In this document: positions 737 to 20,913 of the stretch, piece by piece
Numbering within the stretch: the first letter of the stretch is position 1
How the letters are laid out: the number at the start of each line of letters is the position of its first letter
Origin: a virus
DNA length: 23,168 bases
IMG/VR virus record: IMGVR_UViG_3300008459_000423
Coordinates: 1-23,168 of that record
Direction: 5' to 3' (one strand)
Notes under the pieces: model-generated
What the model was told of the DNA's origin: nothing
What the model saw: the letters and a program-made list of their open reading frames with translations, nothing else
Databases searched by the model: none
Position numbers and translations under genes: made by a program

Positions 737-1336
737 TTACATCAATGTTATAATGTCGTTTATTAACTCATTTACTTTGCCATAAGTGTTGTTTGTTGAG
801 TATTTGCTCTCATTCAACTGATTCATAAAAGCACCTTGTGTACTTGGATTTGATACCAAGTCCCAACATACAATTTCAAAATCATCTTGAACTTCAACCT
901 TACCTTCACCAATTGATTTAACTGATCCCATTCCTCTAGATGATATACCTAAACGAATTCCAGCCTTTAACAACTCTCTTGCTATGTTGCCTGATGGTGT
1001 TCCTAATATTTCTATTTTCCCCATCAAATTGTTACCATCCCACCATAGATCCAACACATTGTGTGATACATTGCTTAAGTTCACAACGGGACTCTCAGGG
1101 TGATCAAGTTCACCTAATGCTCTACGCTCTTTAATAAACACGTTTTTGTATTTATCAGATTCTCTTCTTAATATATCTACTGGATACTTTCTGCCATTTT
1201 GATTAATGGCATCACAACGTTGCATGATACCGCTTAGTATCAATTTACCGTCATTTTGCATCATAGACTCGTTGATCTGCTGAGGTGTTAACTCAAAAGA
1301 CCCAACAAAATCAACTAACAGTCTCTTATTTTCCAT
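737..1336 (-). CDS. 21: Prohead core protease, T4 gp21-like serine protease
   Basis: This 199-residue protein matches the length and key regions of T4 gp21 prohead proteases (about 212 residues). The block RRALGELDHPES (71-82) contains the likely catalytic His79. LGISSRGMGSV (129-139) contains the likely nucleophile Ser132/133, and a conserved region (F)EIVCWDLVSNPST follows at about 153-166. In T4 this enzyme sits in the prohead core, activates itself, and cleaves scaffold, capsid and internal proteins at (L/I)xE sites before DNA packaging. It lies downstream of the portal with two unidentified genes between, as expected for a T4-type head block where small core genes sit between 20 and 21. 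TATTTATAAG precedes the ATG by a few bases. The protease call is firm; the exact catalytic serine is by analogy. Confidence 0.93.
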   Translation of the reverse strand: MENKRLLVDFVGSFELTPQQINESMMQNDGKLILSGIMQRCDAINQNGRKYPVDILRRESDKYKNVFIKERRALGELDHPESPVVNLSNVSHNVLDLWWDGNNLMGKIEILGTPSGNIARELLKAGIRLGISSRGMGSVKSIGEGKVEVQDDFEIVCWDLVSNPSTQGAFMNQLNESKYSTNNTYGKVNELINDIITLM

Positions 1337-6371: not shown

Positions 6372-6707
6372 TTATAATTGTATTTTATTCTTCAAAGTTC
6401 TAAGCACTTCCATTTTACTATCCTTACCATATCCAAAATGACTAAGTACTGAATCAAAGGCATCAGCTAGCTCATCTGCTGTAAGTTGTTGTAGGTTGTT
6501 CTTTAAGGTCTTTGTGTAGGCAAAGGTGATTTTTTCAAGTGATTCACCACGATCTTTTTTAGGCTCTTCCTTTTTAGGAGTCTCTTGATCAGCGCCTGTC
6601 TCCTTGCTTGGAATTTGCTCATCGTCTTGTTCTTTCATTATTTTAGCAATTTCATTGCGTACTAATGCACGAAATTGGTTTTCTTGTATTTTAGATTTAT
6701 TTCGCAT
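6372..6707 (-). CDS. Small protein with type 2 leader helix and helical C-terminal domain
   Basis: This is a 111-residue protein of unknown family. The N-terminus SKIQENQFRALVRNEIAKIM followed by KEQDD is plainly related to the starts of the proteins at 185-379 and 8393-8719. Next comes a low-complexity acidic/Lys/Pro linker (about 31-53), then a helical domain (about 55-111) containing DAFDSVLSHFGYGKDSKMEV. It begins 11 bases inside the preceding gene and ends 23 bases before the terminase start. The layout of leader helix, flexible linker and small globular domain resembles cargo attached to a targeting peptide. No enzymatic motif is seen and the function is unknown. Confidence 0.75.
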   Translation of the reverse strand: MRNKSKIQENQFRALVRNEIAKIMKEQDDEQIPSKETGADQETPKKEEPKKDRGESLEKITFAYTKTLKNNLQQLTADELADAFDSVLSHFGYGKDSKMEVLRTLKNKIQL

Positions 6708-7104
6708 CTTTGTATATTTCTAAAAATTTTGTTGTTTTAGCATCAAAGTTCTTTTTGTCTTTGTCATCAAACATAATGTGTTCAATTTTGCCATCTTTCA
6801 ATTTCATTTTACAAACAGTTGCATCTGACATCTCTAATCCAGTTAAAGTGTAGATTACACCAAAGACTGCTTCCTTTTCATCAATCTTTGCCATTAATAT
6901 GGCATCTTTAATTATAAGATCAAGTTGGCCAACATTTGGTAATTCTGCGGTAAAAATGTGCTGTTCTGATTTTGTACCTATGAATTTGAATAGAGGTTTG
7001 TATCCGTGTGCTGTTTGAAATTCACGGAAAAAAGGCAAAGCCATGAGTTCTGGACTCATTTCTTCTTTTGCCTCTCTAATTGGTATTAAGTTCTTTAGTT
7101 TCAT
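6697..7104 (-). CDS. Unknown protein with MKLKNLIPIREA leader
   Basis: This is a 135-residue protein with no family I recognise. It begins MKLKNLIPIREAKEEM; IRE followed by A at residues 9-12 is a good fit to the gp21-type (I/L)xE site. The remainder looks like a compact alpha/beta domain (about 22-135) with alternating hydrophobic strands such as HIFTAELPNVGQLDLIIKDA and AVFGVIYTLTG. There is no signal peptide or membrane segment. The start overlaps the upstream stop as ATGA, and the end overlaps the next gene by 11 bases, indicating translational coupling in the accessory run. Confidence 0.78.
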   Translation of the reverse strand: MKLKNLIPIREAKEEMSPELMALPFFREFQTAHGYKPLFKFIGTKSEQHIFTAELPNVGQLDLIIKDAILMAKIDEKEAVFGVIYTLTGLEMSDATVCKMKLKDGKIEHIMFDDKDKKNFDAKTTKFLEIYKDAK

Positions 7105-7363: not shown

Positions 7364-7876
7364 TTATAAATATGGTCGCAACTCATTTAATGTTGTGTTT
7401 AGATCTATGTGTAGTATTGCTACACCCTTTTTTGCTGCCCACTGCTCTACATTTCTACGATAATCATCTATTAAAATGCTATATTGATCAGCATAGTTCT
7501 GTTTCATTTTAGCTGGAACAAATATGCCTTTGTAATTACCTAAATTCTTTTTGATCCACGTTTTTTTACCTTCTACACTCGATGGATCTTCTGATGGTGC
7601 TGATAATAGGGTTGGGTTGTATTTTTTTATTGTTTTCCACAACTCCTGTCCACCCTTCATCCAAGGTAATGTTGCCCACCAATTTGCACCCTCATCATTT
7701 ATCAGTTTCCAAGCTGCTCTAACATCATATTCTTGCACATACTCATCAAAGGTGTAACCACCAGACAAATCTCTATAGGCGCCATTGAAATCACAAAGCA
7801 CACCATCCATGTCACAGTAAATTGTGTACCCTTTGTCTGTTGTGGACTCACTTAGTATGTTAATGAGTTTAATCAT
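7364..7876 (-). CDS. HAD-superfamily 5'(3')-deoxyribonucleotidase-like phosphatase with leader peptide
   Basis: This 170-residue protein has the HAD core motifs: motif I YCDMDGVLCDF with nucleophile D22 and acid D24, motif II LLSAPS with S92, a motif III lysine near 123-125 (PAKMK), and motif IV ILIDDYRRN with D137/D138. The layout matches the 5'(3')-deoxyribonucleotidase family, which removes phosphate from (d)NMPs, although the substrate is inferred. In phage it could recycle host nucleotides. The first ten residues, MIKLINILSE, lie outside the HAD fold and match the leader shared by neighbouring genes, with LSE at 8-10 as a possible prohead-protease site. The start overlaps the upstream stop through ATGATTAA. 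Confidence 0.88.
   Translation of the reverse strand: MIKLINILSESTTDKGYTIYCDMDGVLCDFNGAYRDLSGGYTFDEYVQEYDVRAAWKLINDEGANWWATLPWMKGGQELWKTIKKYNPTLLSAPSEDPSSVEGKKTWIKKNLGNYKGIFVPAKMKQNYADQYSILIDDYRRNVEQWAAKKGVAILHIDLNTTLNELRPYL
7365..7372 (-). promoter_or_regulatory. TATTTATA motif at end of HAD gene, before the next gene
   Basis: CCATATTTATAAAAAACAC overlaps the last codons and stop of the HAD gene and ends 15 bases before the ATG at 7349. The downstream A-run matches that of the copy before the portal gene. Confidence 0.35.
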
Positions 7877-8111
7877 TTGATTTGAACCAGTTGGAACAAT
7901 ATTGACTTGGATCTTTTATTGGATCTCCACCTTTTTTTGTGAGTAGAGTCTCAGTTCCCATATACTTTACATAATCTTCATTATTGCACATATGTACACC
8001 CTCCTTTATGTAATAGAACTTACATACATGACAACCAAATCCTTGCTTTGAGTGCATGTAAGGAGCATATTGCTCTTTTTTATCCTCTAATATTTCTTTT
8101 AACTTAATCAT
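7869..8111 (-). CDS. Small Cys-containing protein, possible metal or Fe-S site, with MIKLKEILE leader
   Basis: Using the ATG at 8111, this protein has 80 residues; a TTG seven codons upstream (8132) is possible but would overlap the upstream gene more and spoil the shared leader. After the leader MIKLKEILEDKKEQ comes a domain with four cysteines: GCHVCKFYY (CxxC), MCNNEDYV, and YCSNWF near the C-terminus. The CxxC...C...C spacing with flanking aromatics suggests a zinc or iron-sulfur site, in the style of high-potential iron-sulfur-like small proteins, but the cluster type cannot be told. ILE at 7-9 could be the protease signature. Both ends overlap neighbouring genes by ATGATTAA junctions. 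Confidence 0.8.
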   Translation of the reverse strand: MIKLKEILEDKKEQYAPYMHSKQGFGCHVCKFYYIKEGVHMCNNEDYVKYMGTETLLTKKGGDPIKDPSQYCSNWFKSND

Positions 8112-8406
8112 TTGGTACGTACATATAGACAATAGGTTTTGTAGGATCTACTGGTTGTTTGTTATGTAAATAAAAGCCATTCTCACCATAAACATTGTTT
8201 ATTTTGTTTAGTAGCGTTTGAACAATTTGTGTTTCTCCAAACCTACTTAACGCTTTAAACAATCTAGTTTGATCTTGTGGATATACGTAGATATTGCCTT
8301 TTGGACACTGCTCTAAAGTAAAATACAAATCAACTAACTGCAATGGAATTTTCATTCCACCTAAATTAGTCATCTCCTCCTTAAGTAGTGATTTAAGCTT
8401 TATCAT
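8104..8406 (-). CDS. Small unknown protein with MIKLKSLLKEE leader
   Basis: This 100-residue protein begins MIKLKSLLKEEMTNLGG, the clearest copy of the shared leader, with LKE at residues 8-10. The rest looks like a small alpha/beta domain (about 18-100) with LVDLYFTLEQ, DQTRLFKALSRFGETQIVQT and a C-terminal strand PIVYMYVPND. No motif or family is recognised. Its start lies 14 bases inside the upstream gene, and its stop overlaps the next gene through ATGATTAA. It is therefore the first of three consecutive genes that all start MIKL and are coupled in the same way. Confidence 0.78.
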   Translation of the reverse strand: MIKLKSLLKEEMTNLGGMKIPLQLVDLYFTLEQCPKGNIYVYPQDQTRLFKALSRFGETQIVQTLLNKINNVYGENGFYLHNKQPVDPTKPIVYMYVPND

Positions 8407-8720: not shown

Positions 8721-9164
8721 TTACCATTTTCTGCAGGACCAATATCTTGCTTTGTGCTTTGGTCCAGGATTATCACAATTGTGTCGAGCTCTGAATGATT
8801 TTCTTCGTTCAGGGTTAGATTTTTTTATTCTCATGTTAGGATCACCAAAGTTGACTTTTACAACATTGTCACCCTTCTTAACATACACTTTAAACTTCTT
8901 AACATCACCTCTCATTGGTTTATTAAGAGGCACTGTACGACCTTGATACTCAGCTTCTGTTAGTGGAAATTTTCCAGCTTTAATGTCTTCAAGTAATGCT
9001 ATGGCACACTTGTTGCATATATCCATTTCAGATACTGCATTAATCTTCTTAGCGGCTGCTACGGCTTTGTTATACTCTTCAGAACCTTTACGTGCAGGTT
9101 TTTCACCACGAGCTCTCTTTGCTCGTATATTGTGCCAAAGTCCTTTTGATTCTTCGTTCATCAT
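8721..9164 (-). CDS. Basic Cys-containing phage protein with internal LTE/A site
   Basis: This 147-residue protein has three parts. An N-terminal segment, GLWHNIRAKRARGEKPARKG (about 7-26), is a motif I associate with small conserved phage proteins (DUF5872-like). A middle helix with MDICNKCAIALLEDI follows. A strongly basic C-terminal part starts LTEAEYQGRTVPLNKPMRGD (68-87) and ends with RRKSFRARHNCDN and YWSCRKW. The last part looks able to bind nucleic acid. LTE followed by A (68-71) is an ideal gp21-type cleavage site, which would separate the basic part from the N-terminal half. The start overlaps the upstream stop as ATGA. The biochemical function is unknown; a virion-internal protein is an inference. 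Confidence 0.82.
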   Translation of the reverse strand: MMNEESKGLWHNIRAKRARGEKPARKGSEEYNKAVAAAKKINAVSEMDICNKCAIALLEDIKAGKFPLTEAEYQGRTVPLNKPMRGDVKKFKVYVKKGDNVVKVNFGDPNMRIKKSNPERRKSFRARHNCDNPGPKHKARYWSCRKW

Positions 9165-9769
9165 TTCTTTAGATATTTTGATAACTCACCACCAATTGCA
9201 GCTGCTTCAATTTGTAAGTCCATTACTTGATCATGTGTAAGTGCGTTTTTCTTGTAGAAGTCTATTCCTAAAACAGCTATTAGTCTATTATCAATGTTTC
9301 TCACTGTTAATAAATATGACGATTTTGTACCACTTTCTTCTGCTATATACTTCAAACCAAATGTTGCAACAGCTGGATCTGTATAATCTGCTATTGCTAT
9401 GTAATTGTGTTCTGATAATTGTTTTAGACTTTTTGAGAAGAGATGTACTGGTATGTTTTGAAAATTGTTTCTTACTGAGAACTTATTGTCCTTTACTACC
9501 TCATAAAACATGCTAAACTTTTGTATGCTTTTACCAGTTGGGTAGTAATGACCTCCATTATGGAATTGCAGAATATATAGCCTGTCAGCTTCATATTCCT
9601 CTATTAGCTCATATAGCTTTTCTTCAACCTTTTCGCCAAATACAAAGGCATCGTTGAGTGGGTCTTTTGCAGCTTCAAATCTCTTTGCTGCGTATTTAAC
9701 AACAATTGGTCCAAAAACTCCGGATATAAATGCTGCCAAAATTGGTATCCATTCTACTGGTATTTTCAT
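9161..9769 (-). CDS. Membrane-anchored GAF-like domain protein
   Basis: This 202-residue protein starts with an uncleaved-looking hydrophobic segment (WIPILAAFISGVFGPIVVKYA, about 7-27) followed by basic residues (AAKRFEAAK). That predicts an N-terminal membrane anchor with the rest in the cytoplasm. Residues 45-200 look like a GAF-type sensory fold: a helix, then DRLYILQFHNGGHYYPTGKS (63-82), a central variable region, and strands SSYLLTVRNIDNRLIAVLGIDF (about 150-171) with a final helix. The GAF assignment comes from fold-like pattern and not from a diagnostic residue. No output domain (kinase, cyclase, HTH) is attached. In a phage this might sense a ligand or modify membrane signalling in the host; both are guesses. 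Confidence 0.8.
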   Translation of the reverse strand: MKIPVEWIPILAAFISGVFGPIVVKYAAKRFEAAKDPLNDAFVFGEKVEEKLYELIEEYEADRLYILQFHNGGHYYPTGKSIQKFSMFYEVVKDNKFSVRNNFQNIPVHLFSKSLKQLSEHNYIAIADYTDPAVATFGLKYIAEESGTKSSYLLTVRNIDNRLIAVLGIDFYKKNALTHDQVMDLQIEAAAIGGELSKYLKK

Positions 9770-9771
9770 AC

Positions 9772-10224
9772 TTACTTATTAAGTTGTTGTTTCAGTTCAT
9801 CTAGTTGTGGTTTAACAATTTCTTCAACTCTTTTTACAGAATTACCAGTCCATGTTTCCACTTCTCCATCTTCTGTAACAAACGACTTATTTGCTGTGTT
9901 TTGAAAGTATTCATTGAAAAACACATCTAAGTCTGCAACATAACCCTTTGCATTTGCTAGCACTCGTGCTTGCTCATACTCTTGGTATTTACCTTGTTTA
10001 AGCAATTCATGCTCAAAATCTATAGTACAATCTAAACACAACGTATTAAACTTATAAAACTTCTCGTCTATATGTTTAATTGCTTTACTGCATTTTGGAC
10101 AGCATAATGGTGTTTGTAAATTTTTTCTAACTTGTGAAAATTTACTAATAGTACGCTTGATACCATTTTTAATGGTCCAAGTTTTACCTTTTTCTGTCCA
10201 GATTTCTCCTTCTTGTCGTAACAT
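9772..10224 (-). CDS. Zinc-ribbon-like protein of unknown function
   Basis: This 150-residue protein has two CxxC knuckles, CCPKCSK (about 42-48) and LCLDCTI (about 62-68). They are about 20 residues apart, which is the spacing of a zinc ribbon. The N-terminal 40 residues are basic and aromatic (GEIWTEKGKTWTIKNGIKRT), and the C-terminal 80 residues are acidic and helical, ending in a short coiled-coil-like stretch (EEIVKPQLDELKQQLNK). It starts one base after the upstream stop and ends two bases before the next start. Zinc binding and a contact with nucleic acid or protein are plausible; no specific role can be given. It has no MKLK-type leader. Confidence 0.82.
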   Translation of the reverse strand: MLRQEGEIWTEKGKTWTIKNGIKRTISKFSQVRKNLQTPLCCPKCSKAIKHIDEKFYKFNTLCLDCTIDFEHELLKQGKYQEYEQARVLANAKGYVADLDVFFNEYFQNTANKSFVTEDGEVETWTGNSVKRVEEIVKPQLDELKQQLNK

Positions 10225-10225
10225 A

Positions 10226-10576
10226 TTATTCTTCCTCTGCTCTTGGTTTTAATTGATATTTTTCAATAATGTACTGCATATTGTTGTTCAATCTTTTTGC
10301 AGCTTTATTTAGTTCTTTTCTAACGGCAAGTTCAAACTTCTCCTTCTCAGCTTGATCTGTTACTACTTTGTAGTACTCCTTACCACCAGTAGAGCTGACA
10401 CTAATTGTGAAGCTCAGTTCTGGCTTTCCGGTTTCACCTACATTAGAAAACTTGTGATCTAAGTGTAATGTAAGGTTAAGCAGTGGTGATTCACCAATTG
10501 CTTCCTTTTTTTCTGTGAGTGGAACTTCTGTTTCTTTTAGAATTTCCTTCTGCAATATGCTTTTTAATTTCATCAT
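10226..10576 (-). CDS. Small unknown protein with MMKLKSILQKEILKE leader
   Basis: This 116-residue protein begins MMKLKSILQKEILKETEVP, a copy of the shared leader with LKE at 13-15. The body (about 30-116) has strands LLNLTLHLDHKF and ELSFTISVSS, a Gly-rich turn, then two helices of charged residues ending KPRAEEE. No catalytic motif or family is recognised. It starts immediately after the stop of the upstream nucleotidyltransferase/ligase-like gene and is separated from the next by one base. A second in-frame ATG follows directly, so the first Met may not be used. Confidence 0.8.
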   Translation of the reverse strand: MMKLKSILQKEILKETEVPLTEKKEAIGESPLLNLTLHLDHKFSNVGETGKPELSFTISVSSTGGKEYYKVVTDQAEKEKFELAVRKELNKAAKRLNNNMQYIIEKYQLKPRAEEE

Positions 10577-12457
10577 TTAGAATTTTAAATATCCTAATAT
10601 TTGGTTGATTGGTGCAAATGCACCGGTTAACTTATATAGCTTTCCATTATAAGTGAAAACTAGTCCTTCGGTAGGTACAATTGTATCCATACCACCAATA
10701 TCTTTTATGCGCTCCAATTCTCTCTTTAGAAACTTCAATGCCGCATCTGCATCAGTATAATCAGGAGATGCAGCAGCTTGACGTATTTGTGTGATTGCTG
10801 CGTTTAAATCCTTCTTAATCTGTCTAACTGATTGATCTGGGTTCAGTGTTACTAGGTTTTCAAGATTCTTCAACACTCTACCACCTAATTTTAAAAACAA
10901 CATTTCAATTGGTCTGCCAGCAACTTTTTTCTGATCATTCACACCTGAGCGATCAAAGTTTACCATCCAGTTTCTGAAATCTTCGTTGTTTACTAACTTG
11001 TATATTTGTTTAATGGATGTTGACTTATCGGTAAAAGCCCATCTATTAATTAATAGTTGTAGTACTTGATTTGGTATTTTGTATCTATAACTCTTTGCGT
11101 TTTGTGTAATATAATCTTTCCACCAATTGTAGAAATACAATGACAACTTATCATCCTTTTTCAATCCATACTTATTTTTTAAGCTTTCTAATTCTTGAGT
11201 GTATTCAACTCTCTTGCTTTCATAATCCTGATCTGGTTTTACAGTAGCAGGATCTGTTGCTCTTATTTGATAAGTTTTTTGGTTTTGTGCTTTTTGTTGC
11301 TCAATAGCTGTCTGCAGTCTCTTAACTGGCTCTTGTGTCTCATCAACAACATTACCGTTTTCATCGTAGGTTTTCACATGGTGTAGTCTTAATTGCGCTG
11401 CACCATATGGTATTACATTAGTTGTTCCTGGATACAGTACTTCTAAAGATATAAAATTTTTACCATTTTGGAAAATTTCTGCCTTTTCTTTTGGTGATAA
11501 GTTTTTAACTGCACTGTCAAGATCTCTCATTGCCTCAACAAATGCCACTTGTATTTCACCTCTATTACTAAACTGCTTTTTCATTTGGTTAATGCTCAGT
11601 GAGTTTTCCCCAAAGTTTTTTAGCTGTGTTTTATTTCTTGCTGCTACAAGCTGACCATCTTTATATGATACCATTAGGTTTTGGCCATCAAGCTTCTCTT
11701 GTGCCAGGTCTAGCTTTCCAGACAATGCACCATCAATCATGTTCTCAATATCTGCAAAGGTCAAGTCCATATCTTCATATGGATGTGCTAAGTGACCTGC
11801 ACCTCCTCCTTCATTGATGATTTGTGTGCTTATATTTTCTTGTACTGATTTTTTCAACACTTTGTATATTTTTAAAGCAGTTTCTTTTGGTACATCTGGA
11901 TAATTGGTCATAAAGTTTTTTAAGTTGTCAGATTTTAAATCTGATCTTAAAACAGACGCACTAACACCCTTACCATTAAAATTATCGGATCTACCTTTGT
12001 ATAGTAGAGGTTTTGGATCTACTGGTAGTTCTTGTACAGACACTCCTGGTCTTGCATATTTACCACCATCGTTATGGTCTTGTACAAACTTTTGTACTCT
12101 TTGATAATCATCACCCTTTTTGCTTGATGCCAAGGCATATGCTCCTGGTGATGCTTTTTCAATGAACTTGTATGCTGCTGTTAGTGGAGATTCAACTTCT
12201 GTTTTTTGCACTTCAACATTGGGCACATCTTGCAACAATAGTTGCCATGCTTTCATTGACTGTTCTCTTGTTATACCATCTCTAGTAGTTGGTCCAACTA
12301 AGATAATGACTTTTGATACTTGTGGTAGACCATAATAAGTCATTACTAGCTCCAAATGGCCAGCATGAGGTGGTTTAAATCCACCAGGAAGTAGTACTGT
12401 TACCCCCTTTGTCTCCTCAATCAAGGATTCTATTAAATACTGTGCTAAACTGTTCAT
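10577..12457 (-). CDS. Fusion of HIGH-type nucleotidyltransferase and nucleic-acid-ligase-like domain
   Basis: This 626-residue protein has two enzyme-like halves. Residues 19-205 form a cytidylyltransferase/NMN-adenylyltransferase-type domain: PGGFKPPHAGHLELV with HAGH at 31-34, and GVSASVLRSDL (164-174) resembling the ISxTxxR motif. Residues 250-626 carry covalent nucleotidyltransferase (ligase) motifs: EKLDGQN with K255 (motif I, KxDG), ARNK with R274, FISLEVLYP with E339 (motif III), EGLVFTY at 597-603 (motif IV), and KLYKLTG at 606-612 (motif V). The segment between motifs III and IV is unusually long (about 255 residues). The ligase motifs are seen directly; ligase activity is inferred. 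The N-terminus MNSLAQYLIESLIEE has LIE at 8-10 and 12-14, as in the leader peptides. Substrates are unknown. Confidence 0.82.
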   Translation of the reverse strand: MNSLAQYLIESLIEETKGVTVLLPGGFKPPHAGHLELVMTYYGLPQVSKVIILVGPTTRDGITREQSMKAWQLLLQDVPNVEVQKTEVESPLTAAYKFIEKASPGAYALASSKKGDDYQRVQKFVQDHNDGGKYARPGVSVQELPVDPKPLLYKGRSDNFNGKGVSASVLRSDLKSDNLKNFMTNYPDVPKETALKIYKVLKKSVQENISTQIINEGGGAGHLAHPYEDMDLTFADIENMIDGALSGKLDLAQEKLDGQNLMVSYKDGQLVAARNKTQLKNFGENSLSINQMKKQFSNRGEIQVAFVEAMRDLDSAVKNLSPKEKAEIFQNGKNFISLEVLYPGTTNVIPYGAAQLRLHHVKTYDENGNVVDETQEPVKRLQTAIEQQKAQNQKTYQIRATDPATVKPDQDYESKRVEYTQELESLKNKYGLKKDDKLSLYFYNWWKDYITQNAKSYRYKIPNQVLQLLINRWAFTDKSTSIKQIYKLVNNEDFRNWMVNFDRSGVNDQKKVAGRPIEMLFLKLGGRVLKNLENLVTLNPDQSVRQIKKDLNAAITQIRQAAASPDYTDADAALKFLKRELERIKDIGGMDTIVPTEGLVFTYNGKLYKLTGAFAPINQILGYLKF

Positions 12458-16412: not shown

Positions 16413-19400
16413 CTATTGATAATTTATGTAGCTAAACTCTCCATTCCTATCAATAGTTAATATGTGATCAACCATGTCTCTAACTACATCTATGTGTGAT
16501 ATGACCAAGGTGTACTTGAATAGATCCTTTAGATGATTGAATAGCATGTGCATTGAATTTAAATTTGTACTATCCAATACGCCAAGACCCTCATCAATCG
16601 CTAAAAAGTTAGGTTTTGGTAGATTTGTAATCTTAATCAACGCAACTCTTATAGCTAAGCTTGATATAAACTTTTCCATACCAGATGATAACTCTAATGG
16701 CCACTTATTGGTCTCATAACAAATATACACATTAATAGACTTACCATCTGCTTCAAATGACAATGTAAAATCAGTTATTTGTGACAATAAATTGTTAACA
16801 TATTGCTCAATATGTGGTATTGCTTTTGATATTAGATTATACTGTATGCCATCTCTGCTTATGGCTTGTGTGTATAAACCATATGCTATTTGCTTATCAG
16901 CTAACTCTTGCATGTGCTCAATATTCTTTAAGCACTCATCTATTGTCTTTTCTGCTACGGCTATTTTACCATGTAGTGATTGCATTTCTTTAGCAGCTGC
17001 ATCTTCTTTTATTTTTATTTTTGCAGCTTGTTGCTTCACAATCTCAATTTGTGATTGTAGTTTTTGATTGTGTTTTATTGTTGATTCGTTCTCGTGGTAA
17101 AGTGCTATACTTGATTCAACTAGTTTTAGTTTGTGTTTTGTGTTTTCAATAGCATTTTCTATAGTTTCTATTTGTGATTTAGCCAACTTCTGCTTATCAA
17201 GCATTTCTTTTAGTTCGGCCTTTGTTGTTGTCAAGCCTTCATAATCGGTTGATATTTGCTTGTTGTTGAGTAAGTATTGATCAACATTTTTCTTGTCTTC
17301 AAGCTTGGCTGCAACAGTCTGCTTATCCTCCTCCAACTCCTGCTTTGTTTTAATTGCATCTTTAACAAAAACATTATCTACACAGTATTTGCAGTTTGGA
17401 TCATATTCATGCTTTTCAAGGTTTGCTAGTTTATCCAGCTTACCTTTAATTGTCACTTTTAGTTTATCAAGTACAGTGTTTATTTGCTGTTGTTGTTTTA
17501 CTTTTGCAGTGTACTCTGTAAATGATTGTGTTAACTCTTGTTCATTGTACTGTTGTATTTGATACTTTGTTGTTGTTATGTTTGTCAACAAATCATTTTG
17601 CAGTGTGTTTAGCTTTTCCAATCTCGCTGTTTGCTGTATAATTGCATCTTGGTAATCTTGTTTTTCTTTCTCAAGTGATGTTAGATTTAAATCTTGTGCA
17701 GGATTTGGTCTTAGTAGCTCGGCTAGATCTACGGTCTCTTGCAAACAGCGATCCAACTCTGTTTTGATTTCTTTATACTCTTGTTCAGACTTTGCATATA
17801 ATTCTAAGCAGTCCTCTTTCACACTTTCTGCATCTCCGAGTTTCTGCTCAAAATCTTGCTTTTGATACTCCTCTAGTAATATTGCTGATGTTCTTGTTTC
17901 TTTATTTGCTAAATCATACAGCTGATCAAATATGTTTAGATCCAAGAAGTTTGCTAGCAGTTCCTTTCTCTCACCTTGTGTTTTTTCTATAAAATTGGAA
18001 TTGTTACCTTGTAGGGATAACGCTGTCAAAATAAAATCATCAAAAGATCCAACATAGGATTGTATGATCTTATCCGTATCTCTTCTCTGCTCACCATTGA
18101 GTGAAATAACTTCATCATCCTCATTAATGTACCAAAAATCAATATCCACTCTCAACTTCCCTGCTAATGGTCCCTTTGCATATCTAGTTGCTCTTTTCTC
18201 AATAAAATAATTAACCCCCTCCAACTCAAAATTAAACTTGCAATGGAACCAATCTGATTTATTGTTTAATACCTGATCCGCTTTACTAGCTCTGAAAGAG
18301 TGATCAAACAAACAGAAGCATAGCGCATCAAGAATTGCCGACTTACCAGCGTGATTAGGTGCAAATAATCCACACAGACCGTTCATGTTTGTAAAATCAA
18401 CTACATTGTTTTCACCATAGGAAAACATGTTGGAAAACTCAAACCTTTTTGGTTTCCAAACAACATTACGAACTGTTTCAGTGTGTGGTAATTGGCTATT
18501 TAGCTGCTTATTGATAGTGTATATTTGCTCAAGTGTTTCATCATCTATTTTTGATTGACTAAGATACTCTTTAATCATTTCATTTTGAAACTCCACTCTC
18601 CTCACATCACCACTACTAAACGTTGCATCAGTTGTTTTTGATACTTCTTTTGCATCTATGTTGGTAATAACAACATCACTATTTTTGTAGTCTTTGCGCA
18701 GTGTTGCTAGTACTCTTTTTAATTGTGCTGGTGATGTGTTTTTTGTTTTTAATCGTACACTTGTCTTTGATGTAATTGGTAAATTATCAGGTAATATACC
18801 ATCCTCAATGGTTAATGTGAAGTAACCATAGTCATTAGGTATTTCCAAAAATTTACATTCTAAAGTGTTTACATCCAATATAGCTGGGCCATGACCTTCG
18901 TATGCTTCTCCAAAATTCTGTTGTATCAGTGATCCTGGATAAAAAATAAAAGGTTCTTTATTTAGTGTCTGCCTTTTGTGTATATCACCTAACAAAGCTG
19001 CATCGTATCCTGTGAAGTAGTCTTGACTTAATCCCTGCAATAATCTGATCCCCGTATCTGTTGTACTCGCTTCAACTGTTCCATGATATAGTGCAAATTT
19101 ACGTTTAACTTTCTTTTTTATACTATCTGCCTTTGGATAATTCTCTGGTTGATCTAATACCGACATAACTGTAAATGCTATATCTCCAACTTCAAAATTA
19201 CCAGTGTCTTTTAAGTAATATAAATTAGGATGTTTTAACGCATCAATAATTGGTGTTAATGCATCTAATCTATTATTGTTATTGAGATTTGTATCGTGGT
19301 TTCCACAAATCACAAATGTTGGTACTAAGTCAGCTAGTCCAGTAAAAAAGTAAGATACCATCTGTATCAATTCTGGGCTCATATCTGTTTTTGCATGCAC

Positions 19401-19571
19401 AATATCCCCACCAATCATTACAATAGTGTTTGGTGGTGAATTTTTTACTACAAGATTCAGCTTATCAAAAACTTCTTGATATTCTTTATGTCTTTTCCAA
19501 TTACGAATGTGTATATCGCTAACATGAACAATATAGTCTACTTGATTTAATCCACAGTTTATTTTTTTCAT
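16413..19571 (-). CDS. Fused Mre11/SbcD (gp47-like) nuclease and Rad50/SbcC (gp46-like) ATPase
   Basis: A single 1052-residue chain carries both subunits of the recombination nuclease that T4 encodes as gp47 and gp46. The nuclease part (1-330) shows the metallophosphoesterase motifs VSDIHIRNW (D19, H21), GGDIVHA (D56), GNHDT (N91, H92), LYHGTV (H163) and LGDIHKRQ (D196, H198). The ATPase part (about 375-1052) has Walker A FAPNHAGKSA (K410), long coiled coils on either side of a zinc hook CKYC (727, 730), the signature LELSSGME (959-966), Walker B FLAIDEG (D993, E994) and LVISHID. The complex resects DNA ends for recombination-dependent replication. The frame is open throughout the linker, so this is a fusion. 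The start overlaps the primase stop as ATGA. Confidence 0.94.
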   Translation of the reverse strand: MKKINCGLNQVDYIVHVSDIHIRNWKRHKEYQEVFDKLNLVVKNSPPNTIVMIGGDIVHAKTDMSPELIQMVSYFFTGLADLVPTFVICGNHDTNLNNNNRLDALTPIIDALKHPNLYYLKDTGNFEVGDIAFTVMSVLDQPENYPKADSIKKKVKRKFALYHGTVEASTTDTGIRLLQGLSQDYFTGYDAALLGDIHKRQTLNKEPFIFYPGSLIQQNFGEAYEGHGPAILDVNTLECKFLEIPNDYGYFTLTIEDGILPDNLPITSKTSVRLKTKNTSPAQLKRVLATLRKDYKNSDVVITNIDAKEVSKTTDATFSSGDVRRVEFQNEMIKEYLSQSKIDDETLEQIYTINKQLNSQLPHTETVRNVVWKPKRFEFSNMFSYGENNVVDFTNMNGLCGLFAPNHAGKSAILDALCFCLFDHSFRASKADQVLNNKSDWFHCKFNFELEGVNYFIEKRATRYAKGPLAGKLRVDIDFWYINEDDEVISLNGEQRRDTDKIIQSYVGSFDDFILTALSLQGNNSNFIEKTQGERKELLANFLDLNIFDQLYDLANKETRTSAILLEEYQKQDFEQKLGDAESVKEDCLELYAKSEQEYKEIKTELDRCLQETVDLAELLRPNPAQDLNLTSLEKEKQDYQDAIIQQTARLEKLNTLQNDLLTNITTTKYQIQQYNEQELTQSFTEYTAKVKQQQQINTVLDKLKVTIKGKLDKLANLEKHEYDPNCKYCVDNVFVKDAIKTKQELEEDKQTVAAKLEDKKNVDQYLLNNKQISTDYEGLTTTKAELKEMLDKQKLAKSQIETIENAIENTKHKLKLVESSIALYHENESTIKHNQKLQSQIEIVKQQAAKIKIKEDAAAKEMQSLHGKIAVAEKTIDECLKNIEHMQELADKQIAYGLYTQAISRDGIQYNLISKAIPHIEQYVNNLLSQITDFTLSFEADGKSINVYICYETNKWPLELSSGMEKFISSLAIRVALIKITNLPKPNFLAIDEGLGVLDSTNLNSMHMLFNHLKDLFKYTLVISHIDVVRDMVDHILTIDRNGEFSYINYQ

Positions 19572-20511: not shown

Positions 20512-20913
20512 TTATTGCGATAGCCACTCTTTTGGTATTTCTTTTTCAGCATAAAGAAAACCATGCTTATTACACCAATCAGCATATGTTGTTTTGGATT
20601 TTTTACTTATTCGGTTATTTGCATTTTGAAAAAGAAACCTTATATCAAGCTCTGGGTGTTGTTCTTTTATAAGAAGGTGTTTTTTTCTATCAGCTGTAAC
20701 AAATCTACCTTTTGTTTCTACAAATATACCATTTGGTAAACGGAAATCGGGAGTATACTTGTGATGTGTTGCTGGCTTTATGTAGTTGATTTTATGTTGC
20801 TCGTATTGACCATCAACTCCAACAGCTTTTAAACTATTATCTATTTCCTCCTCAAGCCCGCTTCTGTAACCTTTTACTCGAGCGGCTTGTCTTTTTGTAA
20901 CCTTTTTAGCCAT
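20512..20913 (-). CDS. 3: T7 endonuclease I-like Holliday junction resolvase
   Basis: This 133-residue protein aligns well by eye with T7 gp3 (149 residues). RSGLEEEI (17-24), KYTPDFRLPNGIFVETKGR (52-70) and DRKKHLLIKEQHPELDIRFL (75-94) are near-identical to the T7 regions. The catalytic residues are retained: E21, D56, E66 and K68 of the PDExK-type site. The enzyme cuts four-way junctions and branched DNA, clearing replication/recombination products before packaging. In a T4-type genome this job usually belongs to endonuclease VII (gp49), which is not seen here, so gp3-type replacement is possible. It begins one base after the stop of the upstream virion gene. The N-terminal 14 residues are basic. 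The gene symbol is by T7 nomenclature. Confidence 0.93.
   Translation of the reverse strand: MAKKVTKRQAARVKGYRSGLEEEIDNSLKAVGVDGQYEQHKINYIKPATHHKYTPDFRLPNGIFVETKGRFVTADRKKHLLIKEQHPELDIRFLFQNANNRISKKSKTTYADWCNKHGFLYAEKEIPKEWLSQ

Follow-up and report, generated by a model that had tools for sequence, protein, structure and literature searches.

A HIGH-type nucleotidyltransferase paired with a probable RNA-ligase-type enzyme in aquatic phages

Results

Gene content of the locus

The window analysed here is the whole stretch of 23,168 bases, a fragment that makes up the entire source record. Judged by its gene content it derives from a T4-like phage, since it encodes a prohead protease, a portal protein and a terminase. 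On its minus strand lies a real open reading frame of 626 aa with an ATG start (Table 1). The protein yielded no match above cut-off against Pfam, PHROG, NCBIfam or the PDB sequences, and PADLOC found no match to a defence family. Sub-threshold hints from these direct searches pointed to a HIGH-type nucleotidyltransferase (NTase) at the N-terminus and to nothing at the C-terminus; matches to XopAE and Inhibitor_I66 lay far below cut-off and were disregarded. The initial annotation had read the chain, from its letters, as an NTase fused to a ligase-like domain, and the motifs it had relied on (HAGH, SASVLR, K255, R274, E339, EGLV and KLYKL) were all found where it had placed them. The two-domain architecture was likewise borne out by an AlphaFold model (mean pLDDT 87.5) computed from 57 sequences of the family, in which two confident domains, matched in Foldseek by PPAT/NadD and by RNA ligases respectively, are separated by the only segment with pLDDT below 50.

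Table 1. Features of the fusion gene and of selected neighbouring genes (coordinates of the window)
Feature	Position	Strand	Basis or remark
Whole gene, 626 aa: leader, HIGH-type NTase, ligase-like domain	10577..12457	(-)	ORF, motifs, AlphaFold, Foldseek
Leader MNSLAQYLIESLIEE, residues 1-15	12413..12457	(-)	LIE at 8-10 and 12-14; candidate capsid-targeting sequence
HIGH-type NTase domain, residues 19-204	11846..12403	(-)	Foldseek, profile match, sub-cut-off coaD
HAGH motif, H31-H34	12356..12367	(-)	Position verified; H34 invariant in 35 complete homologues
SASVLR motif, residues 166-171	11945..11962	(-)	R171 invariant; SASxxR common to cyanophage NTases
Disordered linker, residues 205-221	11795..11845	(-)	pLDDT <50; INE216/GG candidate prohead-protease site
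Ligase-like covalent-nucleotidyltransferase domain, residues 222-626, starts HLAHPYED	10580..11794	(-)	AF2 and Foldseek
K255, motif I (EKLDG), predicted nucleophile	11693..11695	(-)	71/71
R274	11636..11638	(-)	71/71
E339, motif III	11441..11443	(-)	71/71
All-helical insertion between motifs III and IV, residues 412-592	10682..11224	(-)	DSSP on model
E597-G598, motif IV	10664..10669	(-)	71/71
K609, motif V	10631..10633	(-)	71/71
150-aa Cys-rich neighbour	9772..10224	(-)	In nearly all family loci, then terminase and portal
116-aa gene, leader MMKLKSILQKE	10226..10576	(-)
NT5C-like HAD phosphatase, leader MIKLINILSE	7364..7876	(-)	phrog_2643, E 7.1e-23
Prohead protease, Peptidase_S77 (gp21 family)	737..1336	(-)	PF03420, E 5.3e-29

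Other genes of the window deserve mention in their own right. A 202-aa gene at 9161-9769, which has a counterpart in the huge phage LR756508, has an N-terminal membrane-like helix and a C-terminal domain with a weak match to ssDNA-exonuclease. A single chain of 1052 aa (16413-19571) joins an SbcD-like phosphoesterase to an SbcC-like ATPase, and a T7-type endonuclease I (20512-20913; PF05367, E 2e-59) is present although the phage is T4-like.

The two domains

The N-terminal domain carries the features of the HIGH superfamily, namely HxGH, a motif of the [IV]S[SA][ST]xxR kind and, according to Foldseek, the Rossmann NTase fold. In the full-length model its nearest solved structures were PPAT (E 9.1e-4) and NadD (E 1.4e-3). 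The NCBIfam coaD profile matched at E 1.9e-4, below the coaD cut-off, and PF01467 reached 12.6 bits against a cut-off of 21 that homologues exceed. In Prevotella Lak phages the NTase domain alone is matched, and the reading frame that carries it contains no ligase-like domain.

In the C-terminal domain the key residues follow the strand order of the ligase superfamily (K255, R274, E339, E597, K609) within the stretches EKLDGQ (254-259), AARNK (272-276), SLEV (337-340), EGLV (597-600) and KLYKL (606-610). All 71 aligned homologues keep E254, K255, D257, G258, R274, E339, E597, G598 and K609. The homologue loci used for the alignment were found by patterns on motif I and HLxHPxED, so that the invariance of these two stretches is partly a matter of ascertainment, while that of R274, E339, E597-G598 and K609, as read from the aligned sequences, is free of it. 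Motifs I, III and IV thus stand as originally assigned. The motif V lysine had been placed at K606, but this residue is variable (K in 51 homologues, N in 19 and R in one) and the conserved lysine is therefore K609. The spacing of about 255 residues between motifs III and IV, which had been singled out as unusual, proved to be a nearly fixed property of the family (249-260 residues in 76 homologues).

Modelled alone with AF2, the C-domain reached a pLDDT of 90.9 and a pTM of 0.86. Its top 31 PDB matches in Foldseek were all RNA or DNA ligases, led by a fungal tRNA ligase (E 4.7e-3, prob 0.97), an archaeal RNA ligase and T4 Rnl1; with the full-length model it again matched archaeal RNA ligases and T4 Rnl1. 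The E-values are modest and the TM-scores low (about 0.25), for which the insertion between motifs III and IV is largely responsible. The structure comparison that had been proposed as a check on the ligase assignment thus points, at the level of a predicted fold for residues of about 222-626, to the RNA/DNA ligases. Strand order and fold matches are also consistent with the expectation of the initial annotation that four key residues would come together in one pocket. Profile methods gave less: run against whole records, PF09414 (RNA_ligase) weakly matched precisely motif I of the fusion gene in four phages (E 0.0035-0.015), with a best score of 13.8 bits in a close homologue against a gathering cut-off of 27 and no match to the window protein, and hhalign of the C-domain against T4 Rnl1 found nothing (prob 0.4%). 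Taken together, both folds and the pairing of NTase with ligase are well supported, and the C-domain is probably, as modelled, an RNA-ligase-type covalent nucleotidyltransferase that depends on a lysine, is divergent and contains a large helical insertion.

The fused family and the cyanophage pair

A profile scan of IMG/VR recovered at least 587 relatives, and tblastn against GenBank phages located the C-terminal domain in Microcystis phage Mel-JY01 and in two huge uncultured phages. In LR756508 the C-domain is fused behind a different type of NTase (915 aa); in LR756500 it forms its own gene of 421 aa, and the gene directly after it encodes a 653-aa protein with the NTase. The HIGH NTase was present in all 41 complete homologues checked. 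In nearly all loci of the family the same Cys-rich gene comes next after the gene, with terminase and portal behind it. GTDB genomes contributed just six MAG contigs, mostly short and probably of phage origin, and the idea of a cellular domain was rejected on this basis.

The viral structure library BFVD matched the C-domain to a 591-aa protein of Synechococcus phage S-PM2 (E 2.3e-4), in which DUF6267 comes first and a CTP_transf_like domain second, opposite to the order in the window protein. In cyanophages DUF6267 (T4-GC 71) directly precedes a 'cytitidyltransferase' (T4-GC 190) and sits among replication genes rather than head genes. The two-domain S-PM2 protein was matched partly or wholly in 547 GenBank phage records, in 201 of which the match covered 80% or more of the protein. 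Among 80 DUF6267 loci from IMG/VR, 68 of them informative, the NTase was fused or lay no more than 1.5 kb away in 56. The NTase partners are clear homologues between the two groups (hhalign E 3.4e-8 for the window type against the DUF6267-linked type, and 9.7e-9). For the C-domain against DUF6267 the hhalign result (P 0.11) is non-significant alone; the motifs HLxHxED, KxDG and EG(Y/L)V are nevertheless collinear, and the gap between motifs III and IV measures 245 residues in DUF6267 and 251 in the window-type C-domain. PF19782 matched neither the window protein nor seven C-domains, and the C-domain profile found no match in the whole S-PM2 and T4 records; the evidence for the link therefore consists of the fold, the order of the motifs, the size of the gap and the genomic partner. 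On these grounds DUF6267 is probably the same kind of enzyme, a distant homologue of the window C-domain.

The S-PM2 pair is annotated as two genes in NC_006820 and as one frame of 591 aa in LN828717, a discrepancy that likely reflects a sequencing frameshift in NC_006820, or else a real difference. The phrog_455 profile seems to have been built partly from fusions, since DUF6267 and its NTase partner match separate parts of it.

Hundreds of aquatic phages thus pair the same two enzymes, whether as fusions in either order or as adjacent genes. The initial annotation knew of no characterised protein with this pairing. Our literature search also retrieved no paper on it, none naming Mel-JY01 and none naming DUF6267, but the pairing itself occurs widely, and GenBank already contains a fused gene, that of Mel-JY01, annotated only as a cytidylyltransferase like protein. 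The fusion, a variant of enzymes of known kinds, is common and apparently unexplained.

Companion enzymes

Many relatives are longer (800-1600 aa), with extra domains of four kinds: P-loop kinase, pol-beta NTase, NUDIX and retropepsin-like Zn_protease. Among known families the kinase matches AAA_33/Zeta_toxin and a phrog polynucleotide kinase (PNK); a standalone copy with its own leader is 81% identical to a fused one, and the same kinase lies near DUF6267 in 19 loci. In one of the DUF6267 loci (L201, 4183-6921) the neighbouring 913-aa protein comprises a leader, the PNK-like kinase, a pol-beta-like segment and the HIGH NTase, so that this protein and DUF6267 together offer an identical set of activities, divided between chains at a different point. 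Such a composition recalls phage RNA-repair sets, which combine RNA ligases, PNK, the pol-beta enzyme RlaP and HAD phosphatases (PMC7824862).

Leaders and proposed packaging in the head

The prohead protease of T4 cleaves after L/I-x-E, and short N-terminal propeptides direct proteins into the head (PMC9026906); T4 IPII and IPIII start with MKTYQEFIAEA (T4 record). In the fused family a leader of the form MNxLxxYLxExxxxE or MNKLTEWLxxPFLxE is retained in front of differing first domains. In LR756500 the ligase-like gene and 22 others, together from 17 families, share the leader MK(Y/F)IxxYEEFLxE, with two internal matches in 109,324 aa; in a close relative of the window, the starts of five neighbouring genes read M(M/I)KLKxIL or nearly so, with one internal match. 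The patterns were chosen after inspection, and these counts are therefore descriptive and no test. A standalone kinase gene starts with MIKLMDILLE, and several DUF6267 proteins begin like MYSFKQYLNE/AKNTHLEHLED. The initial suggestion of a possible capsid-targeting leader is supported to the extent that similar leaders, obeying the T4 L/I-x-E rule as read from the sequences, occur on unrelated genes of related phages. In the window itself six small genes (369-734, 6697-7104, 7364-7876, 7869-8132, 8104-8406 and 10226-10576) have starts of the M(I/M)KLK(S/N/E)(I/L)L type and may form a set of head-targeted proteins.

Of 81 homologues, about two thirds have (L/I)xE in the linker between the domains, with GG right behind it. 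The site had been considered as a universal cleavage site; LLM replaces the L/I-x-E in about a third of them (26 of 81), and cleavage between the domains is therefore not universal.

Published virion proteomes include the NTase in S-CREM2 (PMC10665884), S-SCSM1 (PMC9602691) and S-SZBM1 (PMC9146016), and the N-termini of these proteins read MKNFSSFLTEA, MKSFLQFLKEA and MRFRQFIIEA, respectively. Virions of S-CREM2 also held ORF156, a pol-beta NTase (PMC10665884) homologous to the pol-beta domain that is fused in one of our relatives (E 8e-34). S-SZBM1 also encodes, beside the NTase detected in its virions, a leaderless DUF6267 protein that the published list does not include; packaging of the ligase-like partner is therefore not a constant feature. 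The proteomics authors caution that virion preparations may be contaminated by carry-over. We consider the packaging of leader-tagged NTase and ligase enzymes in the head to be fairly supported; for the window protein itself we infer both packaging and cleavage.

Discussion

The explanation that we prefer is that the HIGH NTase and the RNA-ligase-type enzyme form a head-packaged pair, delivered early and acting on RNA ends, and we give it about an even chance of being correct. On this view the two enzymes constitute one ancient functional pair, kept fused, inverted or neighbouring. The protein would be synthesised as a leader-tagged precursor, most likely sent to the prohead by its N-terminal leader, which the prohead protease would strip, perhaps also splitting the domains at the INE216/GG linker. 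The enzymes would then be ejected into the cell together with the phage DNA. The ligase-like domain would probably form a K255-AMP intermediate and probably seal or cap 5'-phosphate RNA ends, e.g., those of cleaved tRNAs, with the PNK-like kinase and the pol-beta NTase assisting in the larger relatives. We infer this covalent chemistry and the RNA substrate; RNA ends are suggested by the structural neighbours of the domain and by the kinase, the pol-beta NTase and the HAD phosphatase nearby. The HIGH domain may supply the same pathway with an adenylylated nucleotide (NAD-like or of the Ap type) that it makes or reworks. To our knowledge, no role of a HIGH NTase in RNA ligation is known, and this domain is the weakest point of the RNA-end explanation.

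The main rival is a module centred on NAD. An NMN adenylyltransferase, a nicotinamide riboside kinase and a NUDIX hydrolase of NAD or ADP-ribose would rebuild NAD+ early in infection to counter defences that deplete it. The ligase-like domain would in that case draw on NAD+ or ATP to carry out a further reaction, e.g., RNA capping. Fusions of a HIGH NTase to a NUDIX domain (NadM) or to a P-loop kinase (NadR) are a described layout of phage NAD salvage (PMC7824862, PMC9503650), several relatives are precisely NTase plus kinase and one is NTase plus NUDIX, and cyanophage authors have termed the NTase NMNAT-like. The nearest solved folds, however, are PPAT as much as NadD, the kinase matches no riboside kinase family in addition to the matches described above, and the constancy of the ligase-like partner and the presence of the pol-beta NTase are left unexplained. 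We regard the NAD module as rather unlikely.

Two further possibilities concern the ligase-like domain itself. The initial annotation had inferred an enzyme that would make or use a nucleotide cofactor and transfer it to nucleic acid or protein, and that could act at the first moments of infection in the manner of T4 Alt. In an Alt-like role the domain would move AMP or another nucleotide onto a host protein just after injection. Such a role would suit a covalent nucleotidyltransferase fold behind a candidate head-targeting leader, and Alt is likewise an ejected internal protein cleaved by gp21; but no protein-modifying relatives were found, the structural neighbours are RNA and DNA ligases, and the companion enzymes act on nucleotides and RNA ends. 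The Alt-like role thus received no specific support, the kinase, the pol-beta NTase and the RNA-ligase matches favouring RNA ends, and we hold it to be highly improbable. The domain might instead be catalytically dead, or a structural module of the head or scaffold, in which case the pairing would reflect co-packaging and not a shared reaction. The large helical insertion, the modest fold scores and the location of the gene, which in nearly all loci lies a short way upstream of the terminase and portal genes, could be read in this way. Against it, K255, D257, R274, E339, E597 and K609 are invariant in 71 sequences down to about 40% identity, which argues for catalysis, and the cyanophage DUF6267 gene lies outside the head genes. 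A dead or structural domain is, in our opinion, improbable.

The RNA-end explanation can be carried further, to a proposal that we put forward tentatively and consider doubtful. Aquatic phages would carry in the head an RNA-end repair set (kinase, pol-beta, HIGH NTase and ligase) as a leader-tagged polyprotein matured by the prohead protease, and would reverse the damage caused by host anticodon nucleases from the start of infection, DUF6267 being the same ligase in split form. If the preferred explanation is true, it provides a fold and a testable activity for DUF6267 and its fused relatives, which are very common in abundant marine and freshwater phages, and a reason for the cytidylyltransferase beside DUF6267 and for its presence in virions. 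It also suggests that phages pre-load the head with nucleotide- and RNA-processing enzymes.

Among known systems, the RNA ligases Rnl1, Rnl2 and Rnl3 and the fungal tRNA ligase (PDB 2c5u, 2hvr, 2vug, 8uce and 8rbj) are the best solved-structure matches of the C-domain and share its motif order I, III, IV, V. In T4 Rnl1, however, motifs I and IV are only 128 residues apart (K99 to E227), compared with about 250 between motifs III and IV alone in the window protein, whose chain extends little beyond motif V and lacks the C-terminal domains of Rnl1 and Rnl2. Residues 19-204 resemble PPAT (CoaD), NadD and NMNAT in fold, in HxGH and in the S-x-x-x-x-R motif (here SASVLR), and differ from them in being fused to a ligase-like domain and in falling below the Pfam cut-off. 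The NadM- and NadR-like salvage proteins of phages share with some relatives the combination of HIGH NTase with NUDIX or P-loop kinase, whereas the constant partner in the window family is the ligase-like domain.

A named counterpart is WWT39297.1 of Microcystis phage Mel-JY01 (PP395634), a fused NTase and C-domain of 639 aa in the same neighbourhood before terminase and portal, although its NTase is of the GRFQP type and its C-domain only about 38% identical. DUF6267 (PF19782) has HLxHxED, KxDG, an acidic motif III, EG(Y/F)V and a basic motif V, as the window C-domain does, together with a HIGH NTase partner, the same kinase nearby in some phages and T4-CTS-like leaders in many; it differs in that its motif III is QGD, its NTase lies downstream and its Pfam model is blind to the window family. 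Finally, the T4 internal head proteins (IPI-IPIII and Alt) combine a short N-terminal L/I-x-E leader with a prohead protease of the gp21 family, as does the genome of the window. The leader of the window protein is a different one, MNSLAQYLIE, and the likeness, known here from sequence, is that of a probable ejected enzyme to the internal proteins of T4.
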